A DNA stretch of 64,000 nucleotides from Microcoleus sp. AS-A8 (GTDB lineage Bacteria > Cyanobacteriota > Cyanobacteriia > Cyanobacteriales > Coleofasciculaceae). A program made the position numbers and the translations under genes. Below the pieces are notes generated by a model, which was given only the letters and a program-made list of their open reading frames with translations, was not told the DNA's origin and made no database searches. Each line of letters opens with the position of its first letter. Positions within the stretch are counted from its first letter, which is position 1. The DNA lies in the NCBI GenBank assembly GCA_039962225.1, contig JAMPKV010000025.1:1-64000 (forward strand). Reading direction: 5' to 3'. Shown here piece after piece: positions 1 to 24,556 of the stretch.

Positions 1-106
1 CTGTTCCACCGCTTCCACACTCAGATGGGGCGCTGCCCTACTCACTCGGGTCATAAGGTTAACTTATTCCTGACTCTCCGCTCTAGATTCTACATTAGAC
101 TGCAAC

Positions 107-1774
107 TTGGTATCAGGCAATTTGTTGGATTATGCGACCGGGTTTCTGATTTCGCCTCGCCTATTGCTAACAAATCATCACGTTTTCGCTAGTTCTGATG
201 AGGCTCAACTAAGTGAGGTTGAGTTCAATTATCAGCAAAATAAAGATGGAACTTGGATGGGGTCTGAGTTTTTCGCTTTACAGCCCGATACCTTCTTTTT
301 TGCCGATGAGGAGCTTGACTTCGCGGTAGTTGCTGTTGCACAGACGACTCGACAGAGCGGCAAACCGTTAGCTGGTTTTGGCTGGCTGACTCTCGATCCT
401 CAAATCGGTAAGGTGTCTCCCGGTGAATATCTCACGATTATTCAGCATCCAAGCGGAGGAGATAAGCAAATCGCGCTACGCGAAAACCAACTGCTCAAAA
501 TTGATACTCATACACTCTGGTATCGAACAGATACAGCGCCAGGTTCGTCGGGTTCACCAGTTTTTAACGATGTTTGGCAGGTGGTTGCCTTGCATCATTC
601 AGGAGTACCTGAAAAAGATGCCAATGGAAACTATCTAACACTTGATGGTAAGCCTTCGGAAAGACCGATCAACGAGAGCAAAATCAAATGGATTGCTAAT
701 GAGGGCATCCGAGTCAGCCGCATTGTTACATCTCTCCAAGCTGCCTATGGCAACCATTCCTTAATCCGAGGAATTTTTGACACAAGCTCATCCGATTTAT
801 CATCCTCTGTTCACATTAACTCTCAATTAAAGGAGTCACCTATGCCTTCAGACGTTACCGCTCTAACAGGAAATCAATTAACTTACGGTAGAGGAACTCA
901 AATCGACCCCAATGAAGCTAGGCGAGTTACGGACTACAGCGATCGTAAGGGCTACGATCCGAACTTTCTAGGAAGCAATGGTAAGCGCGTTCCCCTGCCG
1001 GAATTGACAGACAAGATGAAGCGCGATTGTGCCATCAATCGTATGGCAGGGCGAGGGATGGATGAATACATCTTGCCGTATCACCACTTCAGCATCGTGA
1101 TGAATAAGGTGCGGAAAATGGCGTTTTACACTGCTGTTAATGTTGACGGAACGCACAGAATTAAGGTTGATAACAACGAAAATTGGATTACTGACCCTCG
1201 AATTGGGGCAGACGAACAAACCAACAATTCTCTTTATGCAGATAACGACCTCGATCGCGGACATCTAGTGCGTCGTTTAGATCCTGTATGGGGTTCCATC
1301 GCCCAAGCTGCCAATAACGATACATTCCACTTCACTAACTGTAGTCCCCAGCACAAAGATTTCAACCAAAACAAGGCAACCTGGCTAGGACTGGAAAACT
1401 ATATCTTAGACAATGCGATCGCAGAAAAGTTTCGTGTGTCCGTGTCCACGGGTCCTGTCTTCCGTAATGATGACAGAGAGCATCGTCGAGTGAAATTACC
1501 CCGTCAGTTTTGGAAAGTTTTGGTCATGGTCAAAGAGGGTAACCTTTCCGCCACAGGTTATCTGCTCAGCCAGGAAGAACTGATTCAAAATTTTCCAAAG
1601 GAAGCGTTTTCTGATGATAGGCGAGTCAGAACTCACCAAGTAACAATTCAGGAGATCGAGGAGTTGACGGGATTATCGTTTGGGTTAAGTGAATTTGACC
1701 CAATGGAGAGTCGCGGGGACGAAAGCACGTCTCGTTTCATACCGATTACTTCCTACGAAGCCATTCGTTTCTAA
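107..1774 (+). CDS. V8-like serine protease fused to DNA/RNA non-specific endonuclease (5' end possibly truncated)
   Basis: Two-domain enzyme of 555 residues. Residues 10-160 form a trypsin/V8-like protease: His25 in TNHHV, Asp71 in LDFAVV, and Ser148 in PGSSGSP. Residues about 265-520 form a NUC1-type metal-dependent sugar-non-specific nuclease, with the DRGH motif at 383-386 (catalytic His386) followed by FTNCSPQH and FNQ..W..LE. All key residues of both domains are present. The frame opens with TTG, has no clear ribosome-binding site and has a TGA at 71-73. Protease sequence begins almost at once, whereas relatives usually carry an extra N-terminal region, so the 5' end may be lost. It lies on the side of the CAST genes where cargo would be, upstream of an RNase T2 gene on the same strand. 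Function (scavenging or defence effector) is not decided by the sequence. Confidence 0.75.
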   Translation: MVSGNLLDYATGFLISPRLLLTNHHVFASSDEAQLSEVEFNYQQNKDGTWMGSEFFALQPDTFFFADEELDFAVVAVAQTTRQSGKPLAGFGWLTLDPQIGKVSPGEYLTIIQHPSGGDKQIALRENQLLKIDTHTLWYRTDTAPGSSGSPVFNDVWQVVALHHSGVPEKDANGNYLTLDGKPSERPINESKIKWIANEGIRVSRIVTSLQAAYGNHSLIRGIFDTSSSDLSSSVHINSQLKESPMPSDVTALTGNQLTYGRGTQIDPNEARRVTDYSDRKGYDPNFLGSNGKRVPLPELTDKMKRDCAINRMAGRGMDEYILPYHHFSIVMNKVRKMAFYTAVNVDGTHRIKVDNNENWITDPRIGADEQTNNSLYADNDLDRGHLVRRLDPVWGSIAQAANNDTFHFTNCSPQHKDFNQNKATWLGLENYILDNAIAEKFRVSVSTGPVFRNDDREHRRVKLPRQFWKVLVMVKEGNLSATGYLLSQEELIQNFPKEAFSDDRRVRTHQVTIQEIEELTGLSFGLSEFDPMESRGDESTSRFIPITSYEAIRF

Positions 1775-1905
1775 TAAAACCTTCGGTGTTAGCGGACGCT
1801 CTAGCTCCTTTAACACTAAATAGGCATGAACTACCCTATGCTCAGTGAATCAGCGTAGGTTAGTTCAGTTGCGATCACGTAGTGTGCGTGGAGGGCGATC
1901 GCAAC

Positions 1906-1932
1906 ACCAATCCTTTTTGCAAAAGGATTGGT
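1906..1932. repeat. Inverted repeat between the two nuclease genes
   Basis: CCAATCC and GGATTGG arms at 1907-1913 and 1925-1931, with T- and A-rich inner bases that extend the pairing. There is no clean T-run after it, so a terminator role for the upstream nuclease gene is only possible. An imperfect GTTGCGATC/GATCGCAAC pair sits just before it. Confidence 0.4.
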
Positions 1933-2053
1933 TACGTCCAGAGAACGTTTGCGATTTTCCTACAATGAGTTCAACTTTCCGGAACCCTATGTATATGTAT
2001 TGAAGAAGATACTGCGCTGTTAGACAGCTATCTGTAACACGAAGGAAATATCA

Positions 2054-3034
2054 ATGTTAACGCTGAAAAAATGGTTGTTGCTTGCAATTTCTCTATGTTT
2101 CTGTTTAACTCTGTGGTCTAGACCAGCTTACGCATTCATCACACTCAACAATCAATTTGTTGCTGACGAAGCTTGCGAAGCCGTACAGTCAATCAAAAGT
2201 GGAACCAATCGGGGAAATATTCGACTGACTCCCCAAGAAACCTATCCAGTCATTGGTAAAAACCGAGATAACGCCTCCCATTACTTGCTTAGGATCGAGG
2301 ACGCTGAACCGTCGGAGCGCTGGGTGTCCCTACAGTGTGGACAACTTTTAGGTTCTTCTGCTCCAGTCAATCAGGATTATTTACTTGCCCTTAGCTGGCA
2401 ACCATCCTTTTGTGAAACGAAGCCAACTAAGCCCGAATGTGAGAGCCAAACGGCAAAACGGTTTGATGCCACAAACTTAGTTCTACACGGTCTATTTCCC
2501 CAGCCGAGGCAAAATATCTATTGCAATGTTAGTGACGATATCATACGTCTTGACAAAGATAAGCAATGGTCAAAGTTGCCACCAATCACCTTATCTGAGG
2601 AAACGCGCAATGAACTAGCCGTTAAAATGCCAGGATTTGCTTCGGATCTGCATCTACATGAATGGTACAAACATGGAACTTGCTACAGTAACTCACCGGA
2701 CGAATATTTCCAAGAATCAATCGCTTTATTAGACCAAGTGAATAACTCTTCAGTTCGCGATCTGTTCGTTAGAAATATTGGTAATTCCCTCTCCTCTAAC
2801 GAGATCAGAAATCAGTTTGATAAAGCGTTCAATGATGGAGCGGGAAGCAAGGTTCAAGTTCAGTGTCAAAAAGATATTGACGAAGCTCGAAACAATATGG
2901 TGGTAGAGCTACAGGTTAACCTTAAAGGTAACATTCAGCCCGAGACTCCAATTGGAAGTCTTCTACAGGCTGGTAAAACAGTTCCGGCAGGTTGCCCCCT
3001 TGGAGAAATCGATCCTGCTGGTTTCGACGATTAA
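2054..3034 (+). CDS. Secreted ribonuclease T2 family protein
   Basis: Endoribonuclease cutting single-stranded RNA through a 2',3'-cyclic phosphate. A signal peptide is clear (KK, hydrophobic core, cleavage near AYA at about residue 27), so it acts in the periplasm or outside. Both family signatures are present: CAS-1 LVLHGLFPQP with His145, and CAS-2 LHEWYKHGTC with Glu203, Lys206 and His207. About 100 residues between the signal peptide and the T2 fold are extra compared with a minimal T2 enzyme and are rich in paired Cys. The ATG is preceded by GAAGGAAA, a good ribosome-binding site. Its neighbours are the protease-nuclease upstream and tniQ, convergent, downstream. It may be CAST cargo; in the host its likely role is nucleic-acid turnover for phosphate, an inference. 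Confidence 0.85.
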   Translation: MLTLKKWLLLAISLCFCLTLWSRPAYAFITLNNQFVADEACEAVQSIKSGTNRGNIRLTPQETYPVIGKNRDNASHYLLRIEDAEPSERWVSLQCGQLLGSSAPVNQDYLLALSWQPSFCETKPTKPECESQTAKRFDATNLVLHGLFPQPRQNIYCNVSDDIIRLDKDKQWSKLPPITLSEETRNELAVKMPGFASDLHLHEWYKHGTCYSNSPDEYFQESIALLDQVNNSSVRDLFVRNIGNSLSSNEIRNQFDKAFNDGAGSKVQVQCQKDIDEARNNMVVELQVNLKGNIQPETPIGSLLQAGKTVPAGCPLGEIDPAGFDD

Positions 3035-3114
3035 TCATGTGCTTTACGGGGTTCGCTCATACTAAATTCCGCTCTGGTTTGGGCGAATCCGTATTCGACT
3101 ATGCAGCAAGTTAA

Positions 3115-3621
3115 CTAAAAAGCTTTTTGATACTCCGCCATCTGAGCAAACGACATAAAACACTGTTGACACCCCCCATCCTCCCACAACGCCGGAATCT
3201 TAAACCTTGCCCCACACCTTGGACACTTCGACAACAACCTCAACTGATGCGTCTCACACCCCGCCGTTGACTTAAACTGCCACTCCATCTGATGACAAGG
3301 CGACTCGGCATAACACGCCCCACATAAGCGAATTGTATTGCAGTTCATCCCCACTCCCTGCGGCGGCAACATTTCCCGTAACCTCTGTGCCTCAACTCCC
3401 ACAACCTTCGCCAACCCCTCCAACTCCTTTGCACTCGGAAACGGATTGAGGTGAAACCTCTCCCATCGCGCCACCACCGCCCCAATTCCCGCCAACGTAC
3501 CTAACGCACTCGGAGTCAAATGATTCCGTCGCCTAAACCTGCCCAAAAAGTGGCTAAAACTCTCCCCCTCGAACGGCTCAACCGGAAACAGCCAAGGTTG
3601 AATCTCATCTGTCAGTGTCAT
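3115..3621 (-). CDS. tniQ: TniQ of a type V-K CRISPR-associated transposon
   Basis: 168 residues, the short TniQ form of Cas12k transposons (about 167 residues there), not the long TnsD/TniQ of other Tn7-like elements. It has the GESFSHFLGRFRRRNHL block near the N-terminus, then the LGTLAGIGAVVARWERF segment, and a C-terminal zinc-binding region with the pairs CGACYAESPCH and CPRCG plus later Cys. In V-K elements TniQ caps the TnsC filament at the Cas12k-target complex and helps recruit the transposase. The ATG overlaps the tnsC stop as ATGA, so the two are translationally coupled. The gene looks intact although its partner tnsC is not. Confidence 0.9.
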   Translation of the reverse strand: MTLTDEIQPWLFPVEPFEGESFSHFLGRFRRRNHLTPSALGTLAGIGAVVARWERFHLNPFPSAKELEGLAKVVGVEAQRLREMLPPQGVGMNCNTIRLCGACYAESPCHQMEWQFKSTAGCETHQLRLLSKCPRCGARFKIPALWEDGGCQQCFMSFAQMAEYQKAF

Positions 3622-4046
3622 GAATACTCCCTGGCTACCTCCTTCAACACCTCCATCGCCCTAGAGCGAAAATCAGAAACTGTCCCCTTAACCGCCCGAT
3701 ATCGCAAGTACTCAATAATCTCCTTAAATAAATCCTTCGCTCCACACTTAGACGGTGGCATAATATAAACCACAGGAACAATCGGCGTTTGCCGTCCCTC
3801 CTGCTTAGGCTTATTGCGTAGAGTGTAAGCTTCACAAGCGACAGTCTTACCCGTCCGCGACTCTCCCACTAAACGACACGATTGACGAGCTTTGCGCTTT
3901 TCATCCAACCACTTATGTAAATCTTGAACATGTTCCAGTGGGACAATACGTGTCTTACTCAGACGAGCAATTTCTGCTTGTAACTCTTGGTCATCCGTTT
4001 TGAATTCCCCTAATTCTTCAGCAATTGACTCAGCTTCAGTCATCAC
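3618..4046 (-). CDS. tnsC: TnsC AAA+ regulator with internal in-frame deletion
   Basis: 142 residues; type V-K TnsC is normally about 276. Residues 1-134 follow the family N-terminal half closely, including the AEIARL segment, KWLDEKRKARQSC, and the Walker A GESRTGKT at 61-68. The protein then jumps from MEVLK straight to EVAREYS, which matches the extreme C-terminus of the family. About 135 residues are missing in frame, covering Walker B, sensor motifs and the arginine finger. The short shared VLK/EV stretch suggests recombination at microhomology. The normal overlap with tniQ is retained. An ATPase without Walker B should not form the usual active filament, so the transposition machinery is probably dead or needs another TnsC. 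Assembly error is the alternative. Confidence 0.85.
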   Translation of the reverse strand: MMTEAESIAEELGEFKTDDQELQAEIARLSKTRIVPLEHVQDLHKWLDEKRKARQSCRLVGESRTGKTVACEAYTLRNKPKQEGRQTPIVPVVYIMPPSKCGAKDLFKEIIEYLRYRAVKGTVSDFRSRAMEVLKEVAREYS

Positions 4047-5762
4047 TTACCACCCGTATTCCTCACGCAATTCGTCTAAGTCCCAAACTTCAATATCAGA
4101 AAAGTCCGATTCCGTCTGAGTTGCTTGTTCTGCTTCTGGCTCAACAGGTTCAACCTCTTCAACCACAGGACTTGTTGGAACTTGCTTATAACTCTGTTCT
4201 TCCATGTGCCTCTGCTTGCGAGTTTTCTTGCCCTCGACCAACGCTTCTCGCTCCATAACCTCCAGCAAAATCGACTGATTACTAACGGTTTTTCCGGCAT
4301 CGCGCAGCCTCTTAGCACTGGCTTTCGCTTCATCCACTGACAATTGCTCCGTCTCTAATTCCTGAGCATGAGCGCGAGTCAAGAAGACTTCCTGCTGTTT
4401 CTCTTGGCGATAAATCCAAATCGTCGTAATATCTCTGGGGTCATACCTGACACTTACGGTTTCTCCTGCATACCCTTCCAGATACTCCCCTCGATACATC
4501 ACATTTTCAAACTGCAAATGCCCACCTCGTTGCACCGTGCGCCTTGCCACTTTCATCAAGCAAATATCTAAATCGCGCTCGGAAATTAGGGCGGGTTCCC
4601 CTCTAAGTCCCGCCTCCCAACGCTGATAGCGGGTTTGGTCGCCCATCCGCGCATCAATACTTTGGTTGTACTTATCAACAAGGAAGCGAACGACTAACTG
4701 TTCCAACTCCCTCAACATCAACTGAGCGTCTTTTTCCGCCTCCTTGGGACGTTCCTGGACATTTGAACCCGTGTAACCCGGTAACGTTGAGAATAACGAC
4801 TGATTCAACGTTTTAAACGGACGCTCAACAATCCCTCCTTCAGAAGGACGACTCCGCAATTTAGGGACAAAACCTAACTGTGTTCCAATTTCTGCCAAAT
4901 GATTGGAGCGAAAGTCTTTACCCCCATCCGTGTAGAAATACTCTGGTTTACCATATGTCCCCCAGTCACAATGCAGCTTGTACTCTGCCCCATATTGCTT
5001 CGGCAATATCGCATGACGTAAGGCTAAAGCAACTACCTGAGAACTGGGTGCATCAAAGCCTAAATTGATGCCCATAATGCAGCGAGAGTAGCTATCAATG
5101 ACAGTGGTTAACCAAGGACGACCAATCAGTTCTCCATGTTGATCGACCAGCAACACATCCGCACGGGTATGGTCACACTGCCAAACCTGATTGCTATAGG
5201 AAATTTCTAGGTCATCCCCATCACGAGTTTTCACCGAAAGCGTCGAACCTCGCCAACCCGGAGTACGAATACTTTTCGCCTTCGCCTCTTTTTCCTGAAG
5301 CGGCTTGAGTACCCTTAAGACAGTTCTGTAAGTGGGTGGTTCATCGTCCCCAATGTCTGAAGCCTTGGCTTGAACCTTCAGAGCAACTTGCTTGGGAGTC
5401 ATCCGCTTACTGCCCTTATTGCCCTGCTGGTAAGTTTTGATGATGAAGTCCTGCCAAAACTGACTAATTCTGTGTTTGCCCCTATCAGCTCTATTGGTTG
5501 AGGTAAGGGCGGCTAATCCTTGCTCCTGATACGTCTTAACTAACCTTTGTACCGATCGCACCGAAACACCAAGCTTCTTCGCACCTGCTCGGAGTCGTTC
5601 TCCATAGGTAGCGCGATCGCACGGTTCAATTAAGCTCAGAATTACGTCCAGCTTGACTTTCGCTTCCCCTGAAAGCTCAGAGACGATTGGTCTTTGATTG
5701 GTAGGGGAGCTAATCGCATTTGCGCCAACAGTATCAAAAGCCACTTGCTCATCAGGTTTCAT
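4047..5762 (-). CDS. tnsB: TnsB DDE transposase of a type V-K CRISPR-associated transposon
   Basis: 571 residues (about 584 in characterised V-K elements). It has an N-terminal helix-turn-helix region (GVSVRSVQRLVKTYQEQG, about 65-82), a second DNA-binding segment (MTPKQVALKV), then an RNase H-fold rve core with Asp197 (WQCDHTR), Asp279 (YTDGGKDF) and Glu313 (GGIVERP). The spacings of 82 and 34 residues match the known triad. The acidic C-terminal tail ending DLDELREEYGW is the tail that contacts TnsC in this family. The gene is intact. There is no TnsA, as expected for V-K, which gives replicative cointegrates. It starts about 60 bp from the first TnsB-type repeat of the transposon end and ends one base before tnsC. 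Confidence 0.95.
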   Translation of the reverse strand: MKPDEQVAFDTVGANAISSPTNQRPIVSELSGEAKVKLDVILSLIEPCDRATYGERLRAGAKKLGVSVRSVQRLVKTYQEQGLAALTSTNRADRGKHRISQFWQDFIIKTYQQGNKGSKRMTPKQVALKVQAKASDIGDDEPPTYRTVLRVLKPLQEKEAKAKSIRTPGWRGSTLSVKTRDGDDLEISYSNQVWQCDHTRADVLLVDQHGELIGRPWLTTVIDSYSRCIMGINLGFDAPSSQVVALALRHAILPKQYGAEYKLHCDWGTYGKPEYFYTDGGKDFRSNHLAEIGTQLGFVPKLRSRPSEGGIVERPFKTLNQSLFSTLPGYTGSNVQERPKEAEKDAQLMLRELEQLVVRFLVDKYNQSIDARMGDQTRYQRWEAGLRGEPALISERDLDICLMKVARRTVQRGGHLQFENVMYRGEYLEGYAGETVSVRYDPRDITTIWIYRQEKQQEVFLTRAHAQELETEQLSVDEAKASAKRLRDAGKTVSNQSILLEVMEREALVEGKKTRKQRHMEEQSYKQVPTSPVVEEVEPVEPEAEQATQTESDFSDIEVWDLDELREEYGW

Positions 5763-5817
5763 CTCAAGATTAATATTTAACTTAAAAACACATTATGTAA
5801 TTCTAGCAAGATTAAAA

Positions 5818-6023
5818 AAGATGACACTCAATTTGTCACTTTCCTTAACTCTTCTTTTTTCAGAAGACGACAGCTAAATTGTCATAAACTCCGAAGGCGA
5901 CATTGATTTTGTCACTGAATTCTCTCCGATTGAAAATGCTAAAATCGTTCTAGCCCTTATAAATGAAAGCTTTCACTTGACGACATTAATTTGTCATCAC
6001 GTCATTTAATTAGTCACTGTACA
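5818..6023. mobile_element. Terminal end of the CAST element with five TnsB-binding-type repeats
   Basis: Five related about 20-bp repeats of the form CGACA-N-TAATTTGTCA occur in one orientation: 5821-5840, 5868-5887, 5898-5917, 5981-6000 and 6001-6017. The last runs into TGTACA at 6018-6023, the terminal hexamer typical of V-K CAST ends (GTCACTGTACA when read outward). Spacing widens in the middle, as in known ends. The array lies just upstream of tnsB, as expected for the tnsB-proximal end. Host DNA should begin at 6024 with ATTTC as the first five bases, the expected size of a target duplication. The partner end is not in this window. Confidence 0.85.
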
Positions 6024-6032
6024 ATTTCCATG

Positions 6033-6067
6033 TAAGCCCCAATTGATGGGGTTTTCGATTTTTTTGC
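6033..6067 (+). terminator. Rho-independent-type terminator next to the transposon end
   Basis: GCCCC at 6036-6040 pairs with GGGG at 6048-6051, followed by TTTTCGATTTTTTT. It points rightward, but the sequence to its left is the transposon terminus. It therefore probably ended transcription of a plus-strand gene that is now on the other side of the insertion. Confidence 0.55.
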
Positions 6068-6220
6068 CCTCTCACCCTGATTTGATTAGCGAGCGATCGC
6101 ACAAGCCCGCTCAACCGGATTTGTGTCTCACTGATACTTTGGCCTTGATTTTGGGATTACTGAGTATAGAGCCGGAGAAATGAGAGCCTCTCCGGTTCGT
6201 CTCTGACAATCAAGGCATTT

Positions 6221-6631: not shown

Positions 6632-6750
6632 GAAGCTCAAAATTGAAGCGGACAGACCCACATACCCATCATGCTCCGTCCGCTTGTTGGGAAGCCTGGA
6701 TTAACCAAGAATTAAGTAGACGGTTTACACTGAGGATGAATAACTTGTCA

Positions 6751-6797
6751 GAAGGCTGAAAATCCTTGTGTCTGCGGTTCAAATCCGTCTCCTGGCA
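6751..6797 (+). pseudogene. 3' half of a decayed tRNA-Phe (GAA)
   Basis: The 47 bases match a tRNA-Phe from position 27 to the discriminator. They include an anticodon loop CTGAAAA with GAA, variable bases GTGTC, T-loop TTCAAAT, and 3' acceptor strand TCCTGGC then A. The 5' half (GCCAGGA acceptor strand and D-arm) is absent. The anticodon stem and the T-stem have mismatches, one base appears deleted on the 5' side of the anticodon stem, and no CCA is encoded. It is therefore a remnant, such as is left at the far side of elements inserting into tRNA genes. It overlaps the region just upstream of the next gene. Confidence 0.6.
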
Positions 6798-6818
6798 TTC
6801 CCAAAAGATTCCCCAAGC

Positions 6819-9657: not shown

Positions 9658-9664
9658 ATATTAG

Positions 9665-10956
9665 TTGACACTCTCCGCACTTCTAGGGCGGAGATTCTTC
9701 GTTCATAGACCCAGCTTGCTCTGACAGGATTGCTCCAGCCACAGTAGAGGCCAAATCTCCCGAAGCGTTCAGGTTTAAAACCCAAGTTCCCACATGCCCT
9801 GTGGTACTCAAGGCTAACTCCAGAATATTGATAGCGGCATTCCAGTCTCGGTCTAATACGAACCCGCACTGACAAGCATGGGTTCTCATAGACAAAGCCT
9901 TTTTGACTAGAGTGCCGCATAATGAGCATTTCTGAGAAGTATAGGCAGGCTTGACTGCAACAGTTATCCTACCGAACTTCACTCCGAAATACTCTAGCCA
10001 CTTTCTGAATTGATACCAACCTGCATCATTAATAGATCTGGCGAGACAGTGATTTTTGACCAAGTTTTTGACCCTCAAATCTTCATAGGCGACCAAATCG
10101 TTAGATTGGATTACGCAACGTGCCACTCTCTTGGCATGTTCTTCACGTTGCCTACTTATTTTGAGGTGTACTCGTCCTAATTTATTAATGGCTTTCTGGC
10201 GGTTGGCAGAGCCAATATTTTTCCGAGAAACACGGCGTTGACGAACCTTCAGCCGTTTCTCCCCAGTCCGATAAAACTTTGGGTTAGGTTCAGTGTGCCC
10301 ATTACTATCGGTATAGAACTGGCTTATTCCTACATCTAATCCGATAGTCCTACCTGTTGGCTTTTTATCTACCTTGTTCTCAGCTTTCACCAAAAATTGA
10401 ACGTAGTAGCCATCAGCCCGACGCACTAGCCTAACCCGTTTGATTTGGTCTAGTTGGTAGAAGTTTAAATCCCACGTTCCTTTAAGTTTGAGCTTACCAA
10501 TCCCTTTCTTATCAGTGAAAGTGATTTGCTTCCTGTTCTCGGAAAGTGACCATCCAGAAGTTTTGTACTCGACTGAGCGACAATTTTTCTGGAACTTTGG
10601 ATACCCTTTTTTGCCTGGAACAGATTTCTTGCAGTTGTCGTAGAACCGAGCTATGGAGCTATAGGCTCTTTCAACAGATGCTTGGCAAGCGCTTGAGTTC
10701 AAGGCTTTAACAAAGGGAAATTCTTCTCTCAACGTTTTACTGAGGCGATACAGCTCCTTCTGTCCTACACCTCGGTTGTCCATCCAATACCGGACACACT
10801 TGTTGCGGACAAACTGAGCGGTCAAAATAGCTTCGTCTACAGCGGCGTATTGAGTTGTTTTTCCCTTAGCTTTAAACTCCAAAACGAGCATTTGCGTGGA
10901 AAAAATCTACGCAAAACATTCTATCACAAAATAAAGCCGTCCTAGAAGGACAGCGG
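9665..10956 (-). mobile_element. IS200/IS605-type element with tnpB only
   Basis: The unit consists of tnpB with hairpins at both ends. On the 3' side CTCCGC (9673-9678) pairs with GCGGAG (9688-9693) across the stop codon, followed outward by GTGTCAAC. On the 5' side GTCC-TAGAA-GGAC lies at 10939-10951. There is no tnpA (Y1 transposase), so it can move only if a related TnpA acts in trans. The 3' hairpin region is where the guide RNA (omega RNA) of TnpB normally ends. Exact borders are estimated. Confidence 0.7.
9683..10891 (-). CDS. tnpB: TnpB RNA-guided endonuclease (OrfB of IS200/IS605)
   Basis: 402 residues, full length. RuvC-I Asp186 in GLDVGIS, RuvC-II Glu270 in VAYEDLRVKNL, zinc finger Cys322, Cys325, Cys340 and Cys342, and RuvC-III DRDWNAAINI (Asp347/349) are all present, so catalytic ability is likely retained. 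The basic N-terminal wedge region is also intact. TnpB cuts DNA matched by an RNA made from the element's own 3' end, and helps the element persist at its site. The C-terminal 45 residues beyond RuvC-III (GHVGTWVLNLNASGDLAS) are common in cyanobacterial copies. A six-base-pair hairpin, TTGCGT/ACGCAA (10892-10914), abuts the ATG and no ribosome-binding site is seen. That may keep expression low. Confidence 0.92.
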   Translation of the reverse strand: MLVLEFKAKGKTTQYAAVDEAILTAQFVRNKCVRYWMDNRGVGQKELYRLSKTLREEFPFVKALNSSACQASVERAYSSIARFYDNCKKSVPGKKGYPKFQKNCRSVEYKTSGWSLSENRKQITFTDKKGIGKLKLKGTWDLNFYQLDQIKRVRLVRRADGYYVQFLVKAENKVDKKPTGRTIGLDVGISQFYTDSNGHTEPNPKFYRTGEKRLKVRQRRVSRKNIGSANRQKAINKLGRVHLKISRQREEHAKRVARCVIQSNDLVAYEDLRVKNLVKNHCLARSINDAGWYQFRKWLEYFGVKFGRITVAVKPAYTSQKCSLCGTLVKKALSMRTHACQCGFVLDRDWNAAINILELALSTTGHVGTWVLNLNASGDLASTVAGAILSEQAGSMNEESPP

Positions 10957-11008
10957 AGCAATAGTTACGCAGCTTTAAACCCATTTTTTCGGTAAATCAT
11001 TGAAGTAG

Positions 11009-23630: not shown

Positions 23631-24556
23631 TCCCAGCATCACACCCACTAGGCTTTGTCACCCATTGACCTGAAATCGTTAAGGAGCTTTATTAATGATC
23701 TAAACAATTTGTAAATCACCCTAGAATCTAGGCACCTCTGAGGTAGGGCTAACCTAAGGCAAGGCTATAGTGATAACAAAGTTACATGAAACAAAATCAT
23801 GGATTGCCTAAAAAAGACAGCCAGGGGATTTTTAAAGTTTTCTAGGCTGGCGATGCCCCCAAAAGCTCAATCGATTAGGCAAATTTACCCCTCTATCTGA
23901 ACAACGAATGGACTAAGATAGTTTGTTTTTTTTGAGGTTGGTACTTGTTTGAGTCCCGAAAAAAATCCTAGTACGCCACTTAAACAGGCGGAATGTGGAT
24001 TAATAAACGCCTTAATAGGAAAAGGTTGTCTAGTTTACCTAAAACTTTACATGGTGGAAATAAATCTACCATGTCATAATATTTTTGTCCTAAAATCTTG
24101 AGTAAAGTTAGATTTTTTTAGGCTAAAGCTAAAGATTATCCAGGGTTATCTTTACAAGAAATTTATATAAAATCATTAAAATCATGAGAAGCAAAGGACA
24201 CGAAAATCTTTCCCCACAAGGATTACAGGTTCTAAAAAAATAAAATAACTCACTTATTAATATGTTTTTTTCAAAAAAAGGTCTCCAGGGGCTGGATCTC
24301 TTTGCATAAAAAATGTCATTATTATCAAAGTAAAGAAATATAGGATTTGATTGCGAAAATCAATAAGATTCTGGATTGCATCTATATAAAATGTAGAAAA
24401 TCCGGTTTGCATTTATCTAAAATGCAAAGTAGCGTAACTGTTCTTAACAATTTGATTTCGCAATTTGATTTCACCCTCGTAAAGCCTCCCGTCAGGGTTA
24501 TCGCCCCTCGGATTCTCACTCTTGTCAACCTTTAGCTTCTTGGAGCACTGATTATC
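23631..24556. other. Long AT-rich intergenic region
   Basis: AT-rich with many A and T runs and no supported gene. The upstream region of the P-domain gene is included, with a hairpin-like AGGTCTCCAGGGGCTGGAT stretch near 24280. Confidence 0.4.

Follow-up and report, generated by a model that had tools for sequence, protein, structure and literature searches.

Window 1-6023 is very probably the tnsB-side end of a V-K CAST that inserted at a tRNA-Phe gene through its own anchor guide and has since decayed (the window is the whole 64,000-nt stretch of DNA analysed, which begins with base 1 of contig C25; the genome measures 7.75 Mb in 54 contigs). Guided by its tRNA-matching anchor, the element would once have inserted 60 bp beyond a GTA PAM of the tRNA-Phe gene; its tnsC would have lost 405 nt and its Cas12k the reading frame, leaving it immobile by its own proteins. 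We regard the short tnsC gene as a product of ordinary decay in an element of a kind already known, rather than as a new regulator. The locus provides one well-resolved case of a V-K CAST dying in place, with guide, ends, TnsB and TniQ still sound-looking and with TnsC and Cas12k each cut by a deletion. The cargo that the decayed element has left behind tRNA-Phe includes a two-module NRPS. That transposition activity has been lost is what we infer from the sequence.

Transposition genes in the window

The PADLOC V-K models match all three of TnsB, TnsC and TniQ, encoded in the order tnsB-tnsC-tniQ, and an NCBIfam search assigned no family to TnsC or TniQ. The parts of the element that lie in the window are:

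1..112 (-), IS end, truncated by the contig boundary; C31 also terminates in this sequence (72379-72496)
113..1774 (+), trypsin-like protease / DNA-RNA endonuclease cargo, C-terminal part (Pfam; homologue comparison)
2054..3034 (+), ribonuclease T2 family protein, cargo (Pfam PF00445, E 4.4e-19)
3115..3621 (-), tniQ, full length, 168 aa (PADLOC TniQ V-K E 2.8e-79; ShTniQ E 1.1e-77)
3618..4043 (-), tnsC with a 405-nt in-frame internal deletion, 141 aa (model matches and comparison with relatives)
3630..3656 (-), deletion junction MEVLK/EVAREYS, inside the VL(K/Q) repeat (comparison with relatives)
4047..5762 (-), tnsB, full length, 571 aa (PADLOC TnsB V-K E 8.6e-250; ShTnsB E 4.4e-271)
5820..6023 (-), right-end region with GACA..TTTGTCA-like repeats (the outer boundary is exact, the inner one was placed by eye and is approximate)
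6007..6023 (-), terminal 17 bp of the tnsB-side (right) end, an exact match to TGTACAGTGACTAATTA in common with C30:73940

The same gene order is found in ShCAST (Scytonema hofmannii, Tn7747), to which TnsB, the N-terminal half of TnsC and TniQ are homologous; the window element differs from it in a TnsC without residues ∼135-269, a Cas12k deleted out of frame and two inserted IS. The first-pass annotation had regarded tnsB and tniQ as intact and tniQ as still coupled to tnsC through ATGA. Both genes are full length by the PADLOC and ShCAST comparisons: tnsB has no internal stop and contains the stretches that we take to hold the catalytic D, D and E, and TniQ residues 5-166 align to ShTniQ 5-166. 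The overlap at 3618-3621 is likewise real (tnsC TGA 3620-3618, tniQ ATG 3621-3619).

The short tnsC ORF spans 3618..4046 on the minus strand (142 aa counting from GTG); the start that agrees with relatives is the ATG at 4043, giving the 141-aa product. In this product the N-terminal 134 residues of TnsC are joined in frame to the C-terminal seven, and comparison with close full-length relatives shows a loss of 135 residues (405 nt), among them Walker B. The match to ShTnsC covers residues 1-135 (E 5.8e-56), and that to the PADLOC V-K TnsC model covers positions 1-133 of 283 (E 3e-45). Where the window has AMEVLK-EVAREYS, the sequence of the two closest full-length relatives is AMEVLKGCEVEMIIIDEADRL...VLQEVAREYS or VLQDVAREYS, and EVAREYS is the C-terminus of close full-length relatives. 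Walker A (GESRTGKT) is retained, and IIDEADR (Walker B) is absent along with the rest of ∼135-269. Of the 75 alignment columns without variation in 27 full-length relatives, 43 fall in the missing stretch; one of the 43, L268, sits in the repeat and is lost or not depending on where the break is placed, the exact breakpoint being ambiguous within VLK/VLQ. These comparisons, including the alignment to a characterised V-K TnsC, uphold the earlier description of an in-frame internal deletion of about 135 residues that removed the Walker B-containing part and spared the N-terminal half with Walker A; the C-terminal remnant, given there as six residues, is seven residues long.

Origin of the in-frame deletion

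Members of the TnsC family carry EVLK near residue 134 and xVLQ near residue 269. The two repeats are exactly 135 codons apart in 25 of the 27 full-length relatives (134 and 139 in the other two). The 15-nt stretches that encode them have a mean of 7.3 identical positions, compared with a background of 4.0 for other in-frame pairs in the same genes, although part of this excess is the shared coding of VL; the relatives stand in here for the undeleted parent gene. In the two closest relatives the repeats are identical at 11/15 nt (L009) and 9/15 nt (L038). The junction fits the microhomology deletion proposed for it at the outset: short direct repeats encoding VLK and VLQ would have recombined or slipped, with the loss of 405 nt. 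Because both repeats share a codon register, the frame would have survived by geometry, and the repeat spacing of 135 codons explains the retained frame without selection. An in-frame deletion in this gene need not mean selection, as a repeat inherent to the TnsC family can yield a 405-nt in-frame loss. No report of a tnsC deletion of this form was found in those parts of the full-text literature on V-K CASTs and TnsC that were available.

Predicted structure and expected function of the short TnsC

AlphaFold2 models were obtained from shallow alignments (28 and 27 rows), with the same relatives used for the short and full-length forms. The short TnsC gave a pLDDT of 55.9 and a pTM of 0.26, compared with 79.8 and 0.65 for the full-length TnsC of Aphanothece. 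In the blocks from Walker A on (61-80), the short form scored 44 and 41 and the full-length form 73 and 85. The full-length model has five strands (56-60, 91-94, 140-143, 167-171 and 193-196), three of which lie in the deleted part. Besides Walker B, the short TnsC lacks the C-terminal helices and three of the five strands predicted for the core, and with these gone neither an AAA+ ATPase fold nor polymerisation nor TnsB recruitment is expected of it. In the active complex, as described in the available part of PMC9876797, two turns of ATP-bound TnsC lie between TniQ and TnsB. According to the available part of PMC11406308, mutation of the Walker B glutamate severely compromised ShCAST, and some natural V-K TnsC proteins have no canonical Walker motifs, so that loss of Walker B alone need not mean death; the loss of half the domain weighs differently.

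A contig region of C27 offers a possible case of a TnsC without canonical Walker motifs, with a 323-aa TnsC (L008/L060) in which no Walker A is recognisable by eye (VTTFDRLGLSKALD) and a full Cas12k; this fits the non-canonical TnsC of PMC11406308, as far as described there.

Reconstruction of the element over three contigs

No cas12k is visible beside tniQ, because the window starts at base 1 of C25. When the assembly was searched at the DNA level with window 1-6100, the outer element end recurred at C30:73936-73985 and at two places on C5, and the first 118 window bases recurred at the end of C31, part of them also near the C48 end. No further copy of the window part emerged from this search of the assembly.

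On C30, the tRNA-Phe gene is followed by 8 bp, the element edge TGTACAGTGACTAATTA and then five CRISPR repeats of 37-38 nt (L101 8180-8509; Rfam CRISPR-DR15) next to the left end, where end repeats similar to those of the right end are found. The outer edge of the right end is TGTACA at 6018-6023, in agreement with an empty site in the same-genus genome G388, in which the C30 flank is continuous with window 6024 onwards. The flanks of the insertion read ...TTCAAAAT and ATTTCC..., and overlap by only 2-3 bp in an A/T run. The short target-site duplication of V-K CASTs is 5 bp; a 5-bp duplication was not seen at the element flanks on C30 and in the window. An 18-nt piece inside the left end matches the tRNA-Phe gene and constitutes the anchor spacer; GTA precedes the protospacer, which is separated from the element edge by 60 bp.

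The plan of V-K elements, as set out in the available part of PMC9938897, has the tRNA/CRISPR side as the left end and the tnsB side as the right end. The left end lies behind the tRNA and carries a truncated repeat with a ∼17-nt anchor spacer, which targets a site with a GTN PAM, usually 46-82 nt from the end (with one exception). The tRNA-Phe gene, 18-nt anchor, GTA and 60-bp distance fit this anchor-spacer rule, and the cas12k, CRISPR array and anchor spacer of the window element follow the same plan (PMC9938897, as far as available).

A tRNA-Phe-like fragment (81% over 52 bp) also occurs at window 6749-6800, ∼730 bp outside the right end. Since G388, which is without this CAST, has the surrounding stretch too, the fragment is probably older than the insertion.

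C30 breaks off in an IS, and the other end of the same IS starts C48. On the G388 element, which is continuous here, 12 bases separate the points at which the two flanks of this first IS stop and resume; next to the IS, ∼13 bases of C30 and 27 bases of C48 do not align to G388. Its matching inverted ends adjoin CTAG on both sides. The right end of C48 and the start of C25 hold two parts of one cargo protein, split by a second IS. The two parts match neighbouring stretches of one frame in 7/7 homologous loci compared (eight were available for the C48 part, own locus excluded, and L164, with a 173-aa frame, was left out). We therefore take the contigs to be joined as C30-C48-C25 across unassembled IS copies. 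The element would comprise C30:73940-75070, IS, C48, IS and window 1-6023, or ∼27 kb excluding the unassembled parts of the two IS copies.

Three other assignments were considered. A stand-alone element without Cas12k was rejected, as the contig begins 3 kb past tniQ and a broken cas12k is present on C48. The cas12k of C10 was rejected as partner of the window tnsC because C30, C48 and C25 are tied together by the empty site, the IS junction and the split gene; the C10 element also has different repeats between its array and tRNA-Val (C6 and C10 are assumed from their positions to be two parts of one other element). One and the same IS end terminates both C25 and C31, and C31 was disfavoured as the neighbour of C48 because the split protein joins C48 to C25; TGA adjoins the IS in C25 and C48, and TCA in C31.

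cas12k, regulator and cargo

A Cas12k profile search of the genome found three full-length copies and the broken one at C48:200-1260, which is matched by NF038191 at C48:200-964 and 946-1260. Compared with G388, 822 nt between the codons for QQRL and DTRLW are replaced by 2, a net loss of 820 nt that shifts the frame and leaves a 101-aa N-terminal ORF ending in TAG. With cas12k deleted out of frame, the element would no longer be RNA-guided by its own effector. Degenerated Cas12k copies are already known in print: 12 such proteins were excluded from the tree in PMC9938897, and the layout that this paper describes for V-K CASTs is shared by the window element; an internal in-frame tnsC deletion is not mentioned in the part of that paper that was available.

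The first IS lies 61-65 nt past the cas12k stop, separating cas12k from the presumed tracrRNA region. On C30 it adjoins a stretch after the CRISPR repeats that is 85% identical (389/456) to the corresponding part of the G388 CAST. The tracrRNA of an Anabaena element starts 35 nt past the cas12k stop (PMC9938897, available part), so that the tracrRNA of the window element may be affected by the IS. Beside the start of cas12k, which runs on the minus strand from 1266, and opposite to it in orientation is a gene for a 149-aa MerR protein (L055:1349-1798(+), on C48), in keeping with the regulator gene opposite cas12k in the V-K plan outlined in PMC9938897.

Besides the broken cas12k and the MerR gene, C48 contains a piece of a group II intron, a two-module NRPS and the N-terminus of the split cargo protein. 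The NRPS is encoded by two genes (1421 and 1947 aa; L055 4828-14933(-)) with condensation, AMP-binding, carrier and thioesterase domains. The N-terminal part of the protease/endonuclease cargo protein is at C48:19332-19649 and is followed by the terminal ∼50 bp of the IS (C48:19649-19699); a plasmid search with the C48 cargo fragment returned no matches.

The Cas12k pieces (L055 179-1266) are closest to the G388 element (79%) and are 64-73% identical to those of Aphanothece and genome G331, though TnsB and TnsC (window 3115-5762) are closest to the latter two (80-82%), an observation pointing to mosaic ancestry.

The element therefore carries four lesions, namely the tnsC deletion, the cas12k deletion, the IS past cas12k and the IS in the cargo gene, and each of the two deletions is expected to stop RNA-guided transposition by its own proteins. 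Among the options raised in the first-pass annotation, the dead CAST is strongly supported by the broken cas12k of the same element and by the two IS. Against full decay stands the intact appearance of TnsB, TniQ, the MerR gene, the anchor spacer and the two outer ends.

Another of those options, an assembly artefact in which the assembler dropped 405 nt from a real full-length tnsC, is improbable. The tnsC gene does lie 3.6 kb from a contig end, and the other CASTs of the genome could confuse an assembler. However, the repeats at the junction share at most 11/15 nt in the 27 relatives, and repeats this short are far below usual assembly k-mer lengths. The other tnsC copies are only 29-40% identical in protein, and the same element carries an independent, different deletion in cas12k as well as two IS insertions.

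Relatives and distribution of the short form

TnsC matches were found in 89 of 388 genomes of the class and in 21 of 97 relatives (own genome included in each; the two sets overlap). Across both sets no other match reaches query residue 142, the furthest ending at 139, and the same short TnsC, whose presence elsewhere had been suggested as a check, was found in none of these other genomes. The tnsC sequence was inspected at 35 distinct loci, of which 27 are full length and eight are broken or altered otherwise (L015, L019, L022, L026, L030, L035, L036 and L037). Six further loci comprise two of full length (L040 and L041), one broken early (L044) and three that appear to repeat L010, L021 and L026 (L039, L042 and L043). 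None of these 35 and six loci shares the window deletion; the remaining matching rows were judged from frame length and aligned range only. Among plasmids, a TnsC search yielded two distant matches. While tnsC genes are broken not infrequently, the window form was found in one genome only.

The closest TnsB and TnsC, 80-82% identical, belong to elements of Aphanothece hegewaldii CCALA 016 (L038) and G331 (L009/L089). These differ from the window element in having a full-length 276-aa TnsC and long open Cas12k frames, the Aphanothece Cas12k match covering model positions 1-594 of 629. The TnsC remainder is 82.1, 73.9, 75.4 and 72.7% identical to four outgroups, compared with 87.4, 76.1, 74.6 and 73.5% for Aphanothece TnsC. 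Identity to the outgroups is lower for the window protein than for that of Aphanothece in 3/4 comparisons for TnsC, 2/4 for TnsB and 3/4 for TniQ. The TnsC remainder is at most evolving slightly faster than its Aphanothece relative. With TnsB and TniQ full length, a TnsC remainder that is at most slightly relaxed points to recent decay; it would equally suit the retention of some parts and does not tell the two apart.

Possible activity in trans

The search of the genome for a second tnsC, as proposed in the first-pass annotation, gave three other TnsC genes with a match to the V-K model. That annotation also raised a regulator or inhibitor of related elements. We consider it highly improbable that the short TnsC is a retained regulator or a dominant-negative inhibitor of related CASTs in the same cell, for example by titrating TniQ/TnsB. 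Equally hard to credit is its specific form, in which the 141-residue protein would act in trans, binding TniQ/TnsB without filament growth and damping the three other V-K CASTs. The survival of the reading frame, the ATGA coupling and Walker A would suit an inhibitor, as would the three other TnsC genes and three full-length cas12k genes of the genome and a TnsC remainder without clear excess of substitutions. However, in the 89/388 and 21/97 matching genomes every other match stops before the end of the short form, the genome's other TnsC proteins match the query at only 40, 35 and 29%, the predicted fold is poor, and the kept frame is accounted for by repeat geometry.

It is somewhat less improbable, though still unlikely, that the element is crippled but movable, its intact TnsB and ends being served in trans by the TnsC and Cas12k of another CAST. 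No damage is apparent in TnsB, TniQ, the two ends or the anchor spacer, and a 476-bp element that has ends of this kind but carries no tns genes (C5:198412-198887, equivalent to L102 ∼4413-4888) indicates that end-only derivatives exist. Against this, the other TnsC and TnsB proteins of the genome are only 30-40% and 41-51% identical, the C10 element carries different repeats between CRISPR array and tRNA, and the window part has no second copy in the assembly. Decay in place remains the preferred reading.

Other possible CAST remnants and neighbouring sequences

The 476-bp element lies shortly behind a tRNA-Thr gene and, with V-K-like ends on both sides, may be regarded as a mini-CAST or an internal-deletion product. 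CAST-like ends adjoining tRNA genes also occur at C1:144252 (L154; tRNA-Val(cac)), C11:212591 (L155; tRNA-Thr(cgt)) and C23 ∼24222-24311 (L156; tRNA-Cys), and may represent solo ends or additional elements. With 2 mismatches, the match on C11 is at a level where a reversed control pattern also gave 1 match. A further end-pattern match with 2 mismatches is present at C23:84971. An 80-bp piece at C3:240653-240732 (L104), 90% identical to tniQ at window 3232-3311, is probably a remnant of another CAST. Just past the tniQ of the C4 CAST, a 225-aa TnsB-like fragment (L006 266-943(-)) reads, by eye, LILGGEGN where TnsB has FYTDGGKDF, and so seems to have lost a catalytic aspartate. Outside the element, the segment at window 9664-10992 is absent at the same place in G388; it contains a 402-aa ORF (9683-10891), presumably TnpB-like, and several related copies are found in both genomes.
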